Source: Myxocyprinus asiaticus (taxonomy: Eukaryota > Chordata > Actinopteri > Cypriniformes > Catostomidae). Taken from it: a stretch of DNA of 64,000 nt. The position numbers were made by a program, and so were the translations under genes. Positions 5,898 to 62,726 of this stretch are shown piece by piece (the first letter of the stretch is position 1; each line of letters starts with the position of its first letter). The notes beneath the pieces were generated by a model that worked only from the letters and a program-made list of their open reading frames with translations, had not been told where the DNA came from and did not search any database. The stretch spans positions 27,494,880-27,558,879 of the forward strand of contig NC_059379.1 of the NCBI RefSeq assembly GCF_019703515.2. The letters run 5' to 3'.

Positions 5898-6048
5898 CTT
5901 GAGGCTGGTTTTGGAGCGTGGGTGGCTGAGGTTGTTGTATCTCCATGTGTCCGTTCCTGGAGTCTCCACGGCTTCTCTTTGCAATTCGGGGGTCATCACA
6001 TCACTTCCGGCCAATGAAAAAATCCCCAGAGAGACAGGGCGCTCCTTC
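5898..6048 (-). CDS. spag9: spag9 exon 5
   Basis: This 151-bp exon starts with one base completing a split codon (AA from exon 4 plus G), then encodes KERPVSLGIFSLAG, an MTPELQREAVETPG stretch, and ends HPRSKTSLK in phase 0. The acceptor follows ACCCAG and the donor is GTGAGAG. The segment matches the JIP4 region after the N-terminal coiled coil, a low-complexity linker rich in Ser and Pro. The same exon accepts splicing from exon 4 or from the alternative first exon at 12701-12861, since both donors are phase 2. No further spag9 exon is recognised to its left within the window. Confidence 0.93.
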
Positions 6049-12700: not shown

Positions 12701-12861
12701 CTGCTGCTGATCCGAGGCAGGGAGTGTGTGATGGCGGGCAGGCCATTGGAGATAGAATAATGCACCAGCAGCAGCACCGAGAGAGAGACCAGAATGGCAG
12801 AGTTAACCACCGCTCCTCCCACGAAGCCAAAGACAAACAGCAGCATGCATCCTGGACTCAT
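12701..12861 (-). CDS. spag9: Alternative first coding exon of spag9
   Basis: The frame opens at ATG 12861 (a further in-frame ATG lies at 12873) and gives 53 codons beginning MSPGCMLLFVFGF. A long apolar run follows (residues about 5-36, including SAILVSLSVLLLV), then HSLPRISS. It ends with AG before donor GTATGC, a phase 2 donor. Joined to exon 5 it reads ISSRKERPVSLG. I recall the human testis-type SPAG9 isoform starting with nearly the same residues and joining the same KERP segment. The product would lack the RH1 domain and first coiled coil and could be a signal-anchored membrane form. The start at 12861 is chosen by that similarity. Transcription from here is inferred. Confidence 0.88.
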
Positions 12862-12873
12862 GGCTGCCACCAC

Positions 12874-14193
12874 ATGCTATGGTCTGCCAGGACCCCCCAC
12901 GCCCCCCAACACTCAAAAACAATCCCATACACACCGGCACAGCACGAGAATCTGTGTCTATGTGTGTATGTGTGGCTCTGCAGCCTCTCAGTGCTGTGAC
13001 ATCATCCACTCCGTTGAGCAGCGCATGCACTCACGCAGCATAGTACGAGGACCGGCTTTGCAGCAGCAGTTTTTTTCCCCCTGAGTGTTGTTTTCAGTGC
13101 TCACCCACTGTCTTCTGTAACTCGCTTGGCTGTTTAATGAACAGCTCTGTCACTTCTGCACAATACTGGGACCTCTCTCAACCTCTCTCTCTCTCCAACA
13201 TTAGAATTAAAAGCTAATTTGCATGCCTTTTCTTGTACAGCTGATTGGTTGTGGGAGAGAAGAGAGAGAGAAAAAAAAAACAAGGAGTAGGATGCATGCA
13301 GATCATGGAGGACAATAAAGGGAACCTACATTAAAAACACACACTGTAGCTCCTCTTCTGGGATCACAAAAGTCCAATCCAACTGCAGTCAGGTGAATGG
13401 AGTCCTGACTTTGAAGTACTTGAAAGGAAGTGGCCATTGTATTTATGCATTTTAAAATATAAAGAAAACAACATGTTGTCTGGCATCATAAATATGAAAA
13501 ACTGCTAGATGCAATGCCACACAATAGACAGGATTCAGGAATAAAACCAGGGTCCAAAATTAACTTATCATCTGTATTTTGCATTATTTAAAAACAAAAT
13601 CATTTATTTTTTTGTCCTTATGACAATGGAATTTAGTCGTTTTTTTCTTTGCATATTAGTGATTAACAGCGCAGGTCACTGTGACACTTGAGATAAATCA
13701 GTCTACAGCTCTGGACTGAAAATGAAGTATTTCTAAGCTACTATGTTGAGTATTTTCTTATAAAATGTTTATCAGGAGTGCGCAATTGATAAGCTGTACA
13801 AACCTGATGATCTTGAAATCGTATTTAATTGATGCTGGTGTAACCTAATGTAGTAGAATTAGTTTATGAAGTGGCAGCCAACAAAATAAGCTCTGATCCT
13901 TACAAATATCATCATCCAGTGGAGAAACTAGGTTTGTACATGAGGGTGAGGGCGACGAGCCTTTGAATGTTGTTTTGCACATGACATGATCACTCAGTTT
14001 GGATCTAACACTCGGATGTATCATCAGAAATAAAGTTATTATATACAACCATTGAATAGAGATATCTTTGTTCAAACATCAGCCAAAACTTTTAAGTGTT
14101 CATAAGAATAAGGACGCATTTCCAAAGAAAACAATGTTAACTCACCATCTGCACCAACAGCCAAAGCAATTACATCCCATGCCTTTTCCTTTG
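12874..14193. other. Presumed alternative promoter region, then intron
   Basis: The 12874-13150 part would hold the promoter and 5' leader of the alternative exon and contains CTCTCT and GCATGC motifs. The rest shows no gene or clear repeat boundary. Confidence 0.4.
12997..13004 (-). promoter_or_regulatory. CRE-like site upstream of the alternative first exon
   Basis: TGATGTCA on the minus strand differs by one base from the cAMP-response consensus TGACGTCA. It lies about 140 bp upstream of the alternative spag9 start. One eight-base match is weak evidence by itself. Confidence 0.3.
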
Positions 14194-18890: not shown

Positions 18891-18982
18891 TTCATTCTGC
18901 CCAGGGTCCCGGAGTCTGCAGTTTCCCCCGTCAGCTGCTGGTATTTGGTACGTTCCAAGTGCTCCATGTAACTGTGGATCAT
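18891..18982 (-). CDS. spag9: spag9 exon 4
   Basis: This 92-bp exon encodes MIHSYMEHLERTKYQQLTG followed by ETADSGTLGRM and two bases of a Lys codon. The acceptor is CATACAG and the donor GTGAGA, phase 2. The MIHxYMEHLERTK block is a hallmark of the JIP3/JIP4 N-terminal coiled coil, with YMEHLERTK closer to JIP4 as I recall it. It continues the helix from exons 2 and 3. Confidence 0.95.
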
Positions 18983-19192: not shown

Positions 19193-19263
19193 CTCAGTGT
19201 GTCTTTGATGCAGGGCATTGTACTCTTTCTTCAGCTCAGCTTCACGCTCTTCTAATCTTCCAA
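19193..19263 (-). CDS. spag9: spag9 exon 3
   Basis: A 71-bp exon whose first two bases complete an Ile codon, then [20 protein letters not shown] and HTE, ending in phase 0 before GTGAGAA. The acceptor is TTATTAG. Heptad-like Leu/Glu/Lys spacing fits the N-terminal coiled coil conserved in JIP3/JIP4. It lies only about 210 bp from exon 4, the one short intron here. Confidence 0.95.
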
Positions 19264-20799: not shown

Positions 20800-23250
20800 A
20801 AGATGGCGCCGAGTATGGCTGCTGCGTTGCGAGCTCCGACACAACATTGCAGTTTTTTGTTTGTTTTGTTTACAGTTCTTATGTTTTTGTCTTGGATGTT
20901 GTCTGCCTTATTCTCTACGATAGACAAACACTTTTGGACATTGGTTCTGCAATTACACACCGAAAACCGAACTTAAAATTCCTCAGTGCCGACCCGCTGT
21001 TTACAAACACGCCAGCGGAGCCCTTTGTTTGGGCTGCCCAGCTGCGGAAACGCAGAAGGAAAAGGGGAAACAGAGCCGGCATTCTCATCAGAGTAAGACG
21101 TCGCCCAGTATTCTACTGGCAAATGTTCAGTCTCTGAGTAACAAGCTCAGCGAGATGAGAGCACGGATCTCTTTCCAACAAGAGACGAGGGACTGCTGCA
21201 TTATCTGCCTTACAGAAACTTGGACATCTGCGGAGATTCCAGACTCAGCCATTGAACACATGGGGTTCTCCATGCACTGAGCGGATAGAGCGAAAGAGCT
21301 CTCAGGTAAAAGCAGAGGTGGTGGTGTATGTTTTATGATCAACAAATCCTGGTGTGATCAGAGGAACGAAAGTCTTTCTGCGCTCCTGATCTGGAATTTC
21401 TTATGCTTCTGTGTCGACCATTCTGGCTACTGAGGGAATTCACAACGGTCATTATCACAGCTGTGTACATCCCCCCACAAGCCAACACAGACCGGGCACT
21501 CAAGGAACTGTATGGGAGTATAATTGAGCAGGGAACCGCGCACCCTGAGGCTGCGTTCATTGTGACCGGGGACTTTAACAAAGCCAATTTCAAATCAATC
21601 GCACCAAAATACCACCAACATATCATTTTCATCACACGAGGGGACCGGGTTTTGGACCATTGCTACTCTCCCTTCCGGGATGTCTACAAATCCCTCCTCC
21701 ATTTTGGCAAATAAGACCACTCTTCCGTTCTACTTCTGCCTGCTTACAGGCAGAAACTGAAACAGGAAGCATCCACCCTCAGAATGATCCAGTGCTGGTC
21801 AGACCAATCAGAATCTACGCTACAAGACTGTTTTGATCACGCGGACTGGGAGATGTTCCGGTCCGCCTCTGATGACGACATCGAGGTGTACGCTGATAGC
21901 GTAACGTGATTCATCAGAAAGTGCGTAAAGGATGTTGTTCCGACCAAAAAAAAATACGGATCTATCCGAACCAGAAGCCATGGATAAATAGTGATGTTCG
22001 CGCTGCACAATGATGCGCGGACCTCCGCTTTTAATTCCGGGAATGCAGAGGAGCATAAACAAGCCAGTTATGCACTCCGCAAATCTATCAGAGCAGCCAA
22101 ACGCCAGTACAGGGACAAGATTGAAGGACAGTTTAACACCACCAACTCTAGAAGCATGTGGCAGGGAATTAATATCATCACGGACTACAAAGGGAATAAA
22201 AACTCCACCATGAACACCGCTGCCTCTCTCCCGGATGAGCTAAACACTTTTTATAACACTGCCCTCGCAGAGAGAGCTCTCGCGGCCGAAGCTACAGAGG
22301 TTAGTTCACTCTCCGTCTCTGTAGCGGATGTAACCCGATCCTTCCGATGGGTGAATATCCGTAAAACCGCGGGTCCAGACGGCATTCCGGGACGCGTCAT
22401 CAGAGCGTGCGTGAACCAACTGGCTAGTGTTTTTAACTGACATTTTCAACCTTTCCCTCTCCTTGTCTGTAGTCCCCAAATGCTTCAAAATGTCCACCAT
22501 TGTGCCTGTACCAAAGCAATCAAAAATCACTTAAATGACTGGCATCCTGTTGCTCTGACACCCATCATCAGCAAATGCTTTGAGAGACTAATCAGAGATT
22601 ACATCTGCTCTGTGCTGCCTGCCTCACTGGACCCATTGCAGTTTGCTTAGCGCAACAACCGCTCCACTGATGATGCCATTGCATCTACAATACACACTGC
22701 TCTCTCCCACCTGGAAAAAAAGAACACTTATGTGAGAATGCTGTTTGTAGACTACAGCTCAGCATTCAGCACCATAGTGCCCTCAAAGCTTGATGTGAAA
22801 CTCCAGGCTCTGAGCTTAAACAGCTCGCTGTGCAGCTGGAACCTGGACTTCCTGTCAAGCAGATGCCAAGTGGTTAGAATAGGCAGCAACATCTCCTCAT
22901 CACTGACCCTCAACACTGGAGCCCCGCAGGGCTGTGTTCTCAGCCCACTCTTGTATTCCTTGTACACACATGACAGTGTGGCAACACACAGCTCCAATGC
23001 CATCATTAAGTTTGCTGATGATACGATGGTGGTAGGTCTGATCACTGACAATGATGAAACAGCCTACAGAGAGGAGGTGCACACACTCTGACACGCTGGT
23101 GTCAGGAGTACAATCTCTCCCTCAACGTCAGCAAGACCAAGGAGCTTGTGGTGGACTTCAGGAGAAAAGACCACAGAACACAGCCCCATCACCATCAATG
23201 GAGCACTGGTGGAGAGTCAGCAGCTTCAAGTTCTTCTGTGTCCACATCAA
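20800..23250 (+). mobile_element. L2/CR1-superfamily LINE, decayed ORF2
   Basis: It opens with AGATGGCGCCGAGTATGGC, a typical LINE 5' start. It then encodes fragments of an endonuclease (LLANVQSLSNKLSEMRARI, ICLTETWTSAEIPDSAIEH, VTGDFNKAN) and a reverse transcriptase ([67 protein letters not shown]). Frames shift at least four times and stops interrupt it, so it is dead. The 3' end is replaced by a SINE at 23252. The FADDT-type active site and VDFR motif are shared with the LINE at 33931. Confidence 0.85.
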
Positions 23251-33061: not shown

Positions 33062-33182
33062 TTTGGTCTGCATAGTTCTTGGACTTCAGCTCCATCTGTC
33101 TGGTCTGGGCCTCCAGTAGCAGCACACGGTTCTGCAGATCTTTCTTATCCTGCTCTTGAGAGTCCTCATACTCAATATATCT
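33062..33182 (-). CDS. spag9: spag9 exon 2
   Basis: This 121-bp exon encodes [40 protein letters not shown] and one base of the next codon (phase 1). The acceptor is TTCTAG and the donor GTAAGT. The EYEDSQEQ...KKDLQ pattern and KNYADQ ending are typical of JIP3/JIP4, just after the RH1 domain, where the helix continues as a coiled coil. It is isolated by introns of about 14 and 20 kb. Confidence 0.95.
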
Positions 33183-33930: not shown

Positions 33931-35537
33931 ACCTGCATGTCTTAAATCATGTGCTAACCAGCTGGCCCCCATCTTCACACAGATCTTCAATAGATCACTG
34001 GAGCAATGTGAAGCCCCATGCTGCTTCAAACGCTCCACTATCATCCCATCCCAAAGAAACCAAAAATCACAGGATTTAATGACTACAGACCTGTCACCCT
34101 GACGTCTGTGGTCATGAAGTCATTTGAGAGACTGGTGTTGGCCCACCTGAAGGACATCACTGGACCCTTTCTAGATCCCCTTCAATTTGCTTTGAGCAAA
34201 CAGGTCTGTGGATGATGCAGTCAACTTGGGATTGCATCATATCCTGCAACATCTGGACAGACCAGGGACATATGCAAGGATCCTTTTTGTGGACTTCAGT
34301 TCGGCTTTCAACACCATCATCCCAGCTATACTCCAGACTAAATTAACCCAACTCTCTGTTCTCACGTCTATCTGTCAGTGGATTACCAGCTTTCTGACAG
34401 ACAGGCAGCAGCTTGTGAGACAGGGGAAATTCACTTCCAGCACCTGTAAAATCAGCACTGCTGCCCCCCAGGGATGCTCCCCACTACTCTTCTCCCTCTG
34501 CACCAATGACTGCATCGCCAAGGACCCCTCTGTCAAGCTCCTGAAGTTTGCAGATGACACCACTGTCATCAACCTCATCCGAGATGACGATGAGTCTGCA
34601 TACAGAAGGGAGGTTAAACAGCTGGCTGTCTGGTGCAGTCAAAACAATCTGGAGCTGAACACGCTCAAAACGGTGGAGATGACTGTGGACTTTAGGAGGA
34701 ACACCCCAACACTGTCCCCCCTCACCATTCTAAACAGCACTGTGGCAGCAGTGGAGTCATTCAGATTTCTGGGCACTACCATCTCAGAGGCCCTGAAGTG
34801 GGAGACCCACATTGACTCCATTGTGAAAAAGGCCCAGCAGAGGTTGTACTTCCTTCGCCAGTTGAGGAAGTTCAACCTGCCACAGGCACTGCTGATACAG
34901 TTCTACTCAGCAGTCATTGAGTATGTCCTCTGCACTTCAATAACTGTCTGGTTTGGTTCAGCTATGAAATCGGATATCAGAAGACTACAAAAGGACAGTT
35001 CGGACTGCTGAGAGGATTATTGGTTGCCCCCTGCCCTCCAGAATGAGGATAAAGGCTGGAAAAATCACTCTGGACCCCACTCACCCTGCCCACTACCTTT
35101 TTGTACTGTTGCCTTCTGGCCAACACTTCAGAGCTCTGAGCACCAGAACCGTTAGGCACAGGAACAGTTTTTTCCCTCAGGCTATCCATCTCATGAACAG
35201 TTAAAACTGCCCCATTGAGCAATAATTAATGTGCAATACACAGCTTAGACTTTTTATATTATCCAACACATCCAACCTCTTCTGCCATTACATTCCCTTA
35301 CACTGTATATAACAGATTTGTATTTAGATTTGAACTACGTATGTGCATGTATGTATGTATATGTATATGTATATATGTGTGTGTGTATGTAATATATATA
35401 TATATATATTTATTTATTAGTCTATTGTGTATTCTATATATACTTATTTTCTTATATACTGGAAGCTCCTGTCACCAAGACAAATTCCTTGTATGTGTAA
35501 GCATACTTGGCAATAAAGCTCATTCTGATTCTGATGT
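33931..35537 (+). mobile_element. L2-type LINE, 5'-truncated, with 3' tail
   Basis: A partly open reverse transcriptase extends over 34018-35011. Motifs in order are CCFKRSTIIPSQRNQ-like sequence shifted in frame, YRPVTLTSVVMKSFERL, ARILFVDFSSAFNTIIPAIL, AAPQGCSPLLFSL, KLLKFADDTTVINL and VEMTVDFRRNTPTLSPLTI. The FADD active site is intact in a 267-codon frame (34208-35011), but an upstream frameshift near 34200 kills it. The 3' end GGCAATAAAGCTCATTCTGA is the typical L2 tail with a TTCTGAT repeat. A CT/AT microsatellite lies in the 3' UTR. Confidence 0.88.
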
Positions 35538-36107: not shown

Positions 36108-37710
36108 CAGTAGTGGCCAAAAGTGATGAGTGACGTCTTTGGCCTTTATTCAAACATATTATAAAAAATGTATTAACATGTTGTAGTTGTGCTTGGAGTG
36201 TAAAACTAATGTACACTCTCCACATTTCAATTATTTTATTTGTCATGAAGCAATGAAACATGCCAAATTGCGCAGACATCATTTTTGGCCAATCTGTCAT
36301 ACAAAGTTTGCACTCACTATTCCCCTATAATTGCTACAGGTGTGTCAATTAAGGTGTTGGCTATATAATTAGATGTACATTTGTGGGTTTTGGTGTCAAT
36401 AGCAAAGAGGAAGGAGCTGTCCTCTGCAACCAAAGAGGCTATTGTCAAAATGGCTAAATCTGGTCAATCAGCTTCGGATATTGTCTGTGTGCTGGATTTG
36501 AATGGTCGCACTGTCCGCAGAATTATTGCAAAGCACCATGAGGCCGGTACCATGCAGATTGTAAAGCGATGTGGCTGGCCAAGAAAGACTAGTGAGCGTT
36601 TTGACAGGAGAATGAAAATCACCTCAATGTGTGACCGCTTCAAAACAGCTTCCAAAGTTCTATAAGAGACGTGCAATGGTGAGGAACCTCCAATTTCATC
36701 TCGCACTGCAAAGCGACTGCTACAAGAGGCTGGATTGAGAGGTTGTGTAGCAGTAAAGAAACCATTTATTAGTTCTGTCAACCGCAAAAAACGTCTTGCC
36801 TCTCCCAAAGAACATAAGTATGTGGAATGTGGAAGACTGGAGCCGTGTTCTGTGGTCCAACGAGTCAAAATTCAACACGATGGCATCTGATGGTGTCAAG
36901 TATGTTCGTAGGAGACGAGGGGAGTATTTTGATACCAAATTCATGTGTGGCACCGTTAAGCACGGCGGGGGAAACATAATGGTATGGGGATGCATGTCTG
37001 CAGCAGGTGTTGGAAGGATCTACAAAGTTGTTGGTACTTTGAAAATAGACCAATACTTGGACATCTTGCAGAACACAATGTTGCCAAGTATAGAGGATAT
37101 GTTTGGAGATCGAACGTGTATTTTCCAACACGATAACGATCCAAAGCACACTGCATGCGCAACGAAGGCATTCCTTGCTGCCCAGCATTTTGAAGTCCTC
37201 AAGTGGCCTCCTCAGTCCCCTGACCTTAATCCCATTGAAAACCTTTGGGAAATTCTAAACCTGAATCATGAAAAGTCATGCAGGTCTTCCAGTGAAGCTC
37301 AGTTTTGTGAAGAATTTAAGGAGGCTTGGAAAAAAATTACGCACAACACACACGCAAAGCTTATTGAGTCAATGCCCAGGAGAACGGCTGCTGTAATCAA
37401 AAACAAGGGAGGACCAACAAAATATTAATAACTGATTACATTGTAGTCAACGTATGCTTTATTTCCTGTGAGCTTTTTGTTTTTCTATGCATTTTTTGCA
37501 TATTAGAATAAAACTCATTCCATGATACGCTGTAGTTTGCCTTTTTTGCCAAATAATTTTGTCAATTAAATACCTTAACCAACATTAGTGTTTTCTTCTT
37601 CCCAATATTACATACTCCTCATATTTTGATGGTTTAATCGAACCTGTACGGTCATTAAAAGCAAATATTGTGGAAATATCCCCTCCGGACATCACTTTTG
37701 GCCACTACTG
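36108..37710 (+). mobile_element. Tc1/mariner transposon, ends intact, transposase dead
   Basis: It is flanked by TA on both sides. Terminal repeats CAGTAGTGGCCAAAAGTGAT and, inverted at the right, ATCACTTTTGGCCACTACTG are identical over about 20 bp. At 1603 bp it is the usual full length. The transposase begins near 36390 with a helix-turn-helix region (KELSSATKEAIVKMAKSGQS; DLNGRTVRRIIAKHHEAGT). A stop codon at 36663 and a frameshift near 36818 break it. The catalytic part then reads on to PRRTAAVIKNKGGPTKY at 37428. The DDE triad is incomplete: the first position is WSNESKF, where the family has WSDES. The second (HDNDPKH) and third (NPIENLW) are present. Confidence 0.93.
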
Positions 37711-53451: not shown

Positions 53452-53751
53452 CTCTTCTGCGCTCTTCCTCAGCGCTTTCTCGCGTTCATACTGCGTGATG
53501 ATCTGCTCGTTGTCCTCCTTCAGCAGTTCCAACTCCACCTCGTGCTCCTGGTTCTCCGCGAACACCGAGTCCAAGTTCTCCAGCACCGCCACGACAAGCG
53601 GCATAAGTTCCTTGACCACGTCCTCGTCGTATTTGAGTATCATCCGCTCGAACTCGCGGTAGATGGAACTCGCCAAGCCGGACACCCGCTCGGACATCAT
53701 CGCCGAGGTTCCCGGGTCCTCCTGGTAAAGGACGCCGTCCTCTAACTCCAT
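53452..53751 (-). CDS. spag9: spag9 exon 1 (start codon, RH1 domain)
   Basis: Exactly 100 codons from ATG at 53751 to the donor GAG/GTGAG. The protein opens [20 protein letters not shown] and contains [38 protein letters not shown] and [20 protein letters not shown], then [15 protein letters not shown]. This is the RH1 (RILP-homology 1) domain and the start of the coiled coil, which in JIP3/JIP4 bind motor proteins. The start is fixed by the conserved MELEDG opening. The exon lies in a CpG-rich stretch, fitting a ubiquitous promoter. The phase 0 donor joins exon 2 at AGATATATTGAG. Confidence 0.97.
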
Positions 53752-61475: not shown

Positions 61476-61720
61476 GTTTGTTAACTCATTAAGATTATAC
61501 TCCAAATAGTATTGATATATGATTAAAGAGTTATAGAATAGCAACAGTTGTAAACTGGCATGGTGTATCACCAATGTATGTCTTGCAGGATGCAATCAGA
61601 CAAGCTAATACTGCTAAGTGCACCTTATGCTGCTTTGTATTGCATGCTGAAGCTAAGGCAGAATGTCTTGATCTTTGAAACACTTTTGAGTCTTGCTCTA
61701 GGGACCTTGGGTATACTGAC

Positions 61721-61971
61721 CTGCGTGTGGGTCCCTCCTCTGTGATGTGCATGATACGACCGGGCAGGTATAGGGGTAAGTGGGTGGGGTGTGTGGGCGA
61801 GTCATCAGATGACAAGCTCTGATAAGTGGATGAACGCTGAACCAACAGGCTCTCCTCGCCTAGCAACGGCTGATTTAGCTCCTCCTCCCGCCGGTTCTCC
61901 ATCTCCGTTGGGAAATCGTCAGGGGTTCCTCCAAACACCTCGTACCAGCAGCCATGCATTAATATCTTGTA
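61721..61971 (-). CDS. daglb: daglb penultimate exon in the window (catalytic His segment)
   Basis: A 251-bp exon beginning [19 protein letters not shown]. It continues with [20 protein letters not shown], a Ser-rich stretch ([16 protein letters not shown]) and [19 protein letters not shown], and ends in phase 2 before GTCAGT. The PGRIMH sequence aligns with PGRIIH of mammalian DAGLs, where I place the catalytic His. [10 protein letters not shown] and NQPLLGE are typical of DAGLB. The acceptor is TCTCAG. Confidence 0.94.
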
Positions 61972-62726
61972 CTGAGAGAAAGAGAAGAAAACAAATTCTT
62001 GATACTATTACGAATTGTTTAGACTAAACTGATACATAAACCAAAAATGGTCATGATGGTTGACAAGATGATGGTTTTTAGTGAGGTTGAGTCATTTATT
62101 TATCTAGATTTTCTGATATTTTTAATGGCCGTTGCATTGCATCTTGGGCTGTTTTTAGAGAATCCCAGCATAAATATAGAATTTTTAGGACAGCATTTGA
62201 AATTAAAACGTGTCTTAAGACCCCTGCATTCTGTTCCATTCCGTTACACTCCATCTAGCGGTTTTTGAACGCAAGAACACGCTTCAAAAGGTAGAAGAGA
62301 ACTTCTCCGTGAGCACTTATCCCTACACTAAAAAAACTAAAAAAACGTTGTATTGCAGCACTTATGTTACTGTCTGTAGCAAGTTTTATAATAAAAAAAG
62401 GACTTAAATATTGATCTGTTTCACACCCACACCTACCATATCGCTTCTGAAGACACTCTACCTCGGCTCACATTTGCTGAGCTGCTTCAATTGCAAATGT
62501 AAATCACACAAATTACAGCACTAAAATATATTTTAGATGGCTATCAATTAAAGTCAAACTACGCAATATTAACAAATTGATATGTTCAGTTGCCGTTTTT
62601 GATCATTAAAAGTTCGATACCATTTAATCTGGGATATAATACAGCTGAGATGGCGATGCCAGTTTAATATCAGAAATTCCATCTTTCCTTCATGCCAATA
62701 GTGTTTAACACTGCTTAACACATGCG
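61972..62726. other. daglb intron
   Basis: AT-rich, no gene or repeat recognised. Confidence 0.5.

Follow-up and report, generated by a model that had tools for sequence, protein, structure and literature searches.

An exon on the minus strand of the 64-kb window (the whole stretch of DNA analysed here), from 12861 to 12701, corresponds, on sequence evidence, in this fish to the alternative first coding exon already known in vertebrate SPAG9. That it is a real SPAG9 first exon is close to certain. As judged from the species that carry it, the exon is older than the divergence between cartilaginous and bony vertebrates. The proposal as a whole, in which this exon, a separate promoter and splicing to exon 5 would yield an anchored JIP4 without RH1 and LZI, is considered likely.

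The 5' part of spag9, which encodes JIP4, lies on the minus strand of the window, where five coding exons and the alternative exon were read. Coding exons were placed with a human probe sequence, together with splice-site reading. The features are as follows.

53452..53751, minus strand: spag9 exon 1, coding part (300 nt), with the ATG and the RH1 domain, in CpG-rich surroundings; not in the short form
33062..33182, minus strand: spag9 exon 2 (121 nt), which contributes to the LZI region and is left out of the short form
19193..19263, minus strand: spag9 exon 3 (71 nt), which contributes to the LZI region and is left out of the short form
18891..18982, minus strand: spag9 exon 4 (92 nt), with phase 2 donor AATGAA/gtgaga; skipped by the short form
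12862..13361, minus strand: presumed 5' UTR and promoter of the alternative exon, with low CpG (observed/expected 0.31) and one CCAAT at 13248
12701..12861, minus strand: spag9 alternative first coding exon, with ATG at 12861, 53 codons plus 2 nt, donor CAG/gtatgc and N-terminus MSPGCMLLFVFGF..
5898..6048, minus strand: spag9 exon 5 (151 nt), the common exon, which exon 4 or the alternative exon joins in frame (KERPVSLGIF..)

Exons 1-5, when joined, are stop-free and read as the N-terminus of JIP4. The alternative exon contributes 161 coding nt, from the ATG at 12861 (context gcagccATGa) to a phase 2 donor at 12701/12700, and the exon 5 acceptor at 6048 reads ..cccag/GAAGG. In-silico joins of exon 4 and of the alternative exon to exon 5 both continue in frame into KERPVSLGIF.., and the same alternative-exon/exon 5 junction (RKERP..) is found in a Myxocyprinus asiaticus isoform, P0002. 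The initial annotation had described an exon between exons 4 and 5 with its own start codon and a phase 2 donor interchangeable with that of exon 4, replacing 190-odd residues that carry RH1 and the first coiled coil by a 53-residue segment. Its coordinates (ATG 12861, donor 12701) proved exact and the two donors are interchangeable; exons 1-4 total 584 coding nt, or 194 codons plus 2 nt, with RH1 on exon 1, and the LZI region would be lost as exons 2 and 3 are skipped. The frame is closed by a TAG 6 codons 5' of the alternative ATG, which fits a first exon; an internal cassette exon, read in this frame, was rejected. The residues ahead of the Met also differ among 10 over-extended predicted proteins, a further point against an internal cassette.

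Hydrophobicity alone is unconvincing as evidence for the exon. Its best Kyte-Doolittle 21-mer scores 2.30, and 4 of the 164 ATG-initiated ORFs of at least 53 aa in the window score 2.4 or more. The possibility of a chance hydrophobic ORF was therefore judged by conservation in homologues instead, and the exon is taken as real because the segment is conserved there. In the homologue search, with matches scored on residues 1-105 of the predicted short isoform, E up to 10 and limited lengths, 202 proteins matched, and the best 120 were inspected. All 120 have the hydrophobic segment, which begins at residue 1 in 110 of them; the pattern used for counting, M[SN]P..LL.VFGF.GG.VV(I/V)NSA.LVSLSVLLLVH.S, was composed after the sequences had been viewed, so that these counts are descriptive and not a test. 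The window exon follows this pattern except for a missing residue 20. The best match is "JIP4-like isoform X4" of Myxocyprinus asiaticus (P0002), with 100% identity over the 105 residues. Solved structures gave no match to the 53 residues of the exon, and a Pfam scan of them gave no match above threshold and two far below the cut-off. A phage collection gave no match to the exon, and its first letters had no match in the literature text searched.

Carriers of the segment among the matches listed include a ray and sharks (P0024, P0060, P0065), sturgeon and many teleosts. Tetrapod carriers among these matches are frogs, turtles, lizards, an alligator, birds, a marsupial and placentals, with the monkey protein P0076 one of the mammalian examples. 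No cyclostome or invertebrate name occurs among the matches listed, either in the best 120 of 202 or in a search with the ray exon. The initial annotation had held the exon to be ancient and shared by fish and mammals, and had asked for purifying selection as a check. Its great age is borne out by its presence in sharks, a ray and bony vertebrates, and both the match between fish and mammals and the purifying selection are seen at the protein level. The ray-exon search (E up to 10) returned 14 proteins named SPAG9/JIP4, hypothetical or unnamed, and an origin outside SPAG9 was rejected on this result; it also matched one protein named JIP3 (Bagarius, P0021), which carries the SPAG9 segment. The paralogue JIP3 (MAPK8IP3) has the corresponding RKERP exon. 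Sharing of the alternative exon by JIP3 was rejected as far as annotated proteins show, the segment being present in 0 of 29 JIP3-type proteins within the first 110 residues, in a search that favoured shortened forms; about half of the 29 begin with the usual RH1 region.

Automatic gene prediction seems to be the source of most of the matching proteins. At least 6 of the 120 (P0011, P0015, P0102-P0105) do not continue directly into exon 5; in P0102-P0105, from Sceloporus undulatus, extra sequence SPSPMPTVVRTLN.. lies between the alternative exon and exon 5 and is possibly a lizard cassette exon. An unnamed contig product, P0154, reads from the alternative exon into unspliced sequence and is therefore no evidence of expression. 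RH1 and the alternative exon occur together in P0009, P0036, P0068, P0097, P0110 and P0115, with dissimilar residues ahead of the Met; in these, annotation has probably fused two alternative first exons by mistake.

Database SPAG9/JIP4 isoforms starting with MSPGCMLLFVFGF.. (such as P0002, P0017, P0060 and P0089) have the same N-terminus and exon 5 junction, lack RH1, and keep LZII and WD40. The long form of JIP4 (JLP), a product of the same gene, shares exon 5 onward with the short form but starts at exon 1 with RH1 and LZI and has no hydrophobic N-terminus. We take the human JIP4 (1142 aa) and SPAG9 (766 aa) variants to bear this very N-terminus, in agreement with the mammalian matches. Because of that agreement, and because human variants are published, the exon is already known; it is not new but an annotated, deeply conserved isoform N-terminus in many species. 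Jagadish 2005 and Kelkar 2005 are reportedly the primary papers on the human SPAG9 splice variants. Human SPAG9 N-terminal variants are in print (PMC5341948, PMC2211295), and the gene is described as giving three variants, JLP of 1307 aa, JIP4 of 1142 aa and SPAG9 of 766 aa (PMC5341948). A "transmembrane binding site" in JIP4 is mentioned (PMC11773325), and no study of membrane insertion of this isoform was found in those portions of the SPAG9/JIP4 literature that were searched.

The strength of conservation was compared with that of the rest of the protein. Between ray and marmot, the first 39 residues are 97% identical. Windows of 39 residues along the protein average 73% for this pair, and 92 of 1130 such windows equal or exceed the N-terminal segment. 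Between P0002 and marmot the segment shows 92.5% identity, against a window mean of 71%, with 99 of 1124 windows as good or better. The segment falls in the best tenth of windows for 4 of the 7 species pairs examined; in the other three, 192 of 1147, 264 of 1137 and 176 of 1119 windows equal or better it, so parts of the remaining JIP4 are equally conserved. In an alignment of 19 species (the 20-species set minus Oryzias), 30 of the 39 columns for residues 1-38 are invariant, compared with 493 of 1081 in the rest of the protein (Fisher p 1.2e-4). Among Ile/Leu/Val-majority columns, 14 of 17 are invariant in the segment and 105 of 216 outside it (p 0.010). These p-values flatter the segment, because columns are not independent and the proteins were chosen for likeness to it. 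The tail of the segment, residues 40-53, is variable in sequence and length. By this alignment, the invariance of the first 38 residues is stricter than a generic anchor needs. Residue 20, which follows GGAVV and is Ile, or Val in a few fish, is absent from the window's copy; P0016, P0106 and P0120 have Val. It is present in 118 of the best 120 of 202 homologues and missing there only in P0002 and in Sinocyclocheilus grahami P0003.

The structure predicted for the 53 residues, from a 24-sequence alignment, is a single helix from 3 to 38 (36 residues) with mean pLDDT 76.2 and pTM of only 0.41. A signal anchor calls for a hydrophobic helix near the N-terminus that is at least some 20 residues long, and the predicted helix, with its Kyte-Doolittle score of 2.30 over 21 residues, has this character, as had been supposed when the segment was first called signal-anchor-like. 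Insertion scores summed over 21 residues, on a scale used without position weights, are 0.34 for the window form and -0.13 for the form with Ile20. The hydropathy of the segment is that of a modest transmembrane segment. Residues 1-5 of the predicted isoform are free of K, R, D and E, and residues 36-60 contain 4 K/R and 1 D/E. Under the positive-inside rule, positive charges after a helix favour a cytosolic C-terminus, and that orientation is favoured here because the charges lie after the helix and not before it. The segment would probably act as a signal anchor, with the scaffold in the cytosol.

The hydrophobic segment might instead be a cleaved signal peptide, or might place the scaffold in the lumen or on the outside, so that the product is secreted or displayed at the surface. 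Its N-terminal position would suit such a product, as would the first naming of the gene as a sperm antigen, a name that appears in paper titles. The order of charges around the helix points the other way, the hydrophobic stretch is long (the helix predicted for it spans 36 residues), and the LZII and WD40 domains kept in the isoform are described as having cytosolic partners (PMC6831827); a secreted or surface form is unlikely. The conservation, for its part, could reflect a DNA or RNA element (promoter, enhancer or splice control) as much as the protein, with the peptide mattering little. Across the proteins there is an Ile/Val exchange at one position and a Tyr/Phe exchange at another, the tail varies, also in length, and the window copy lost one residue with its frame kept, all of which speaks for constraint on the peptide and makes this account quite improbable, even though residues 7-34 are kept near letter-for-letter, including Ile/Leu/Val positions that would be exchangeable in a plain anchor.

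The missing residue could also mean that the exon is decaying, or is under relaxed constraint, in this genome copy after gene duplication and has little function here. Both Myxocyprinus asiaticus and Sinocyclocheilus grahami come from polyploid fish lineages, and only their two proteins, P0002 and P0003, among the 120 listed lack the residue. However, the loss is in frame, the start, donor, phase and remaining core are intact, and the isoform is annotated, so that decay is very unlikely. Under the preferred reading of a conserved signal anchor, the interesting point remaining is why a membrane helix has been kept nearly letter for letter. A tentative possibility is that the first exon encodes not a generic anchor but a sequence-specific membrane helix that has hardly changed since sharks and bony vertebrates diverged. 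Such a helix would pair with one fixed partner, either a second copy of itself or a different membrane protein, perhaps in sperm or secretory organelles; JIP4 might then be permanently attached to its organelle, with no need of phospho-Rab, TMEM55B or Phafin2 to recruit it, and limited to LZII-bound motors.

RH1 (PF09744) is found on exon 1 with an E value of 6.9e-17. In P0002, from which the domains of the short isoform were read, there is no RH1 match, so that the N-terminal RH1 of the JIP3/4 long forms is absent; JIP_LZII is present at 246-316 and WD40_2 at 800-1019, and RH2 is indicated only by the names of several homologues. Human JIP4 is described as having RH1 at residues 17-68 and LZI at residues 69-172, with RH1-LZI binding kinesin heavy chain (KHC) and dynein light intermediate chain (DLIC), and LZII binding kinesin-1 KLC and dynactin p150glued (PMC6831827). 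The initial annotation had expected RH1-based motor binding to be lost. RH1 is indeed missing, but motor binding is predicted to be lost only in part, because LZII, which binds KLC and p150glued, is retained in P0002. By its domain content the short isoform would lose one of two motor-binding sites.

We propose that transcription would start at a separate, CpG-poor and probably tissue-restricted promoter within intron 4, and that the mRNA would be spliced from 12701 to 6048 to encode a protein without RH1 and LZI. The CpG observed/expected ratio of the 500 nt upstream of the alternative ATG compares with 1.22 upstream of the exon 1 ATG and 0.49 for the whole window, and those 500 nt contain no TATAAA or GC box. 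As far as base composition goes, the contrast would agree with the long form having a CpG-island promoter and the short form a restricted one. The N-terminus of the protein would form one long hydrophobic helix that spans the membrane as a signal anchor; its very short uncharged end would lie on the far side, and the scaffold with LZII, RH2 and WD40 would face the cytosol. Such a JIP4 would be fixed to a membrane and would be able to meet KLC and p150glued through LZII but not KHC and DLIC through RH1-LZI. In the sources consulted, JIP4 is treated as an adaptor that partners bring to lysosomes, endosomes and macropinosomes, the long form being recruited to membranes by phospho-RAB10, TMEM55B and Phafin2 (PMC8325962). 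If the proposal is true, a JIP4 built into the membrane without the RH1 motor site would behave unlike a recruited adaptor, and pan-SPAG9 antibodies or a long cDNA would not distinguish the membrane-type form. The strict conservation of the N-terminus across jawed vertebrates suggests that the short form matters.

Several further features occur in the window. A 157-codon open frame on the minus strand at 61534-62004, upstream of spag9, has no Pfam match and resembles an exon of another gene. Transposable-element remains lie in spag9 introns on the plus strand at 22651-23088, 34196-35008 and 36757-37425; they comprise two reverse-transcriptase pieces (RVT_1) and one DDE_3 transposase piece. At 12858-12875 on the minus strand is an upstream ORF of five codons (MWWQP); its TGA shares letters with the main start in the sequence ATGA, an arrangement that might permit termination-reinitiation. 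Another upstream ORF, longer and overlapping, opens at 12928 on the minus strand.
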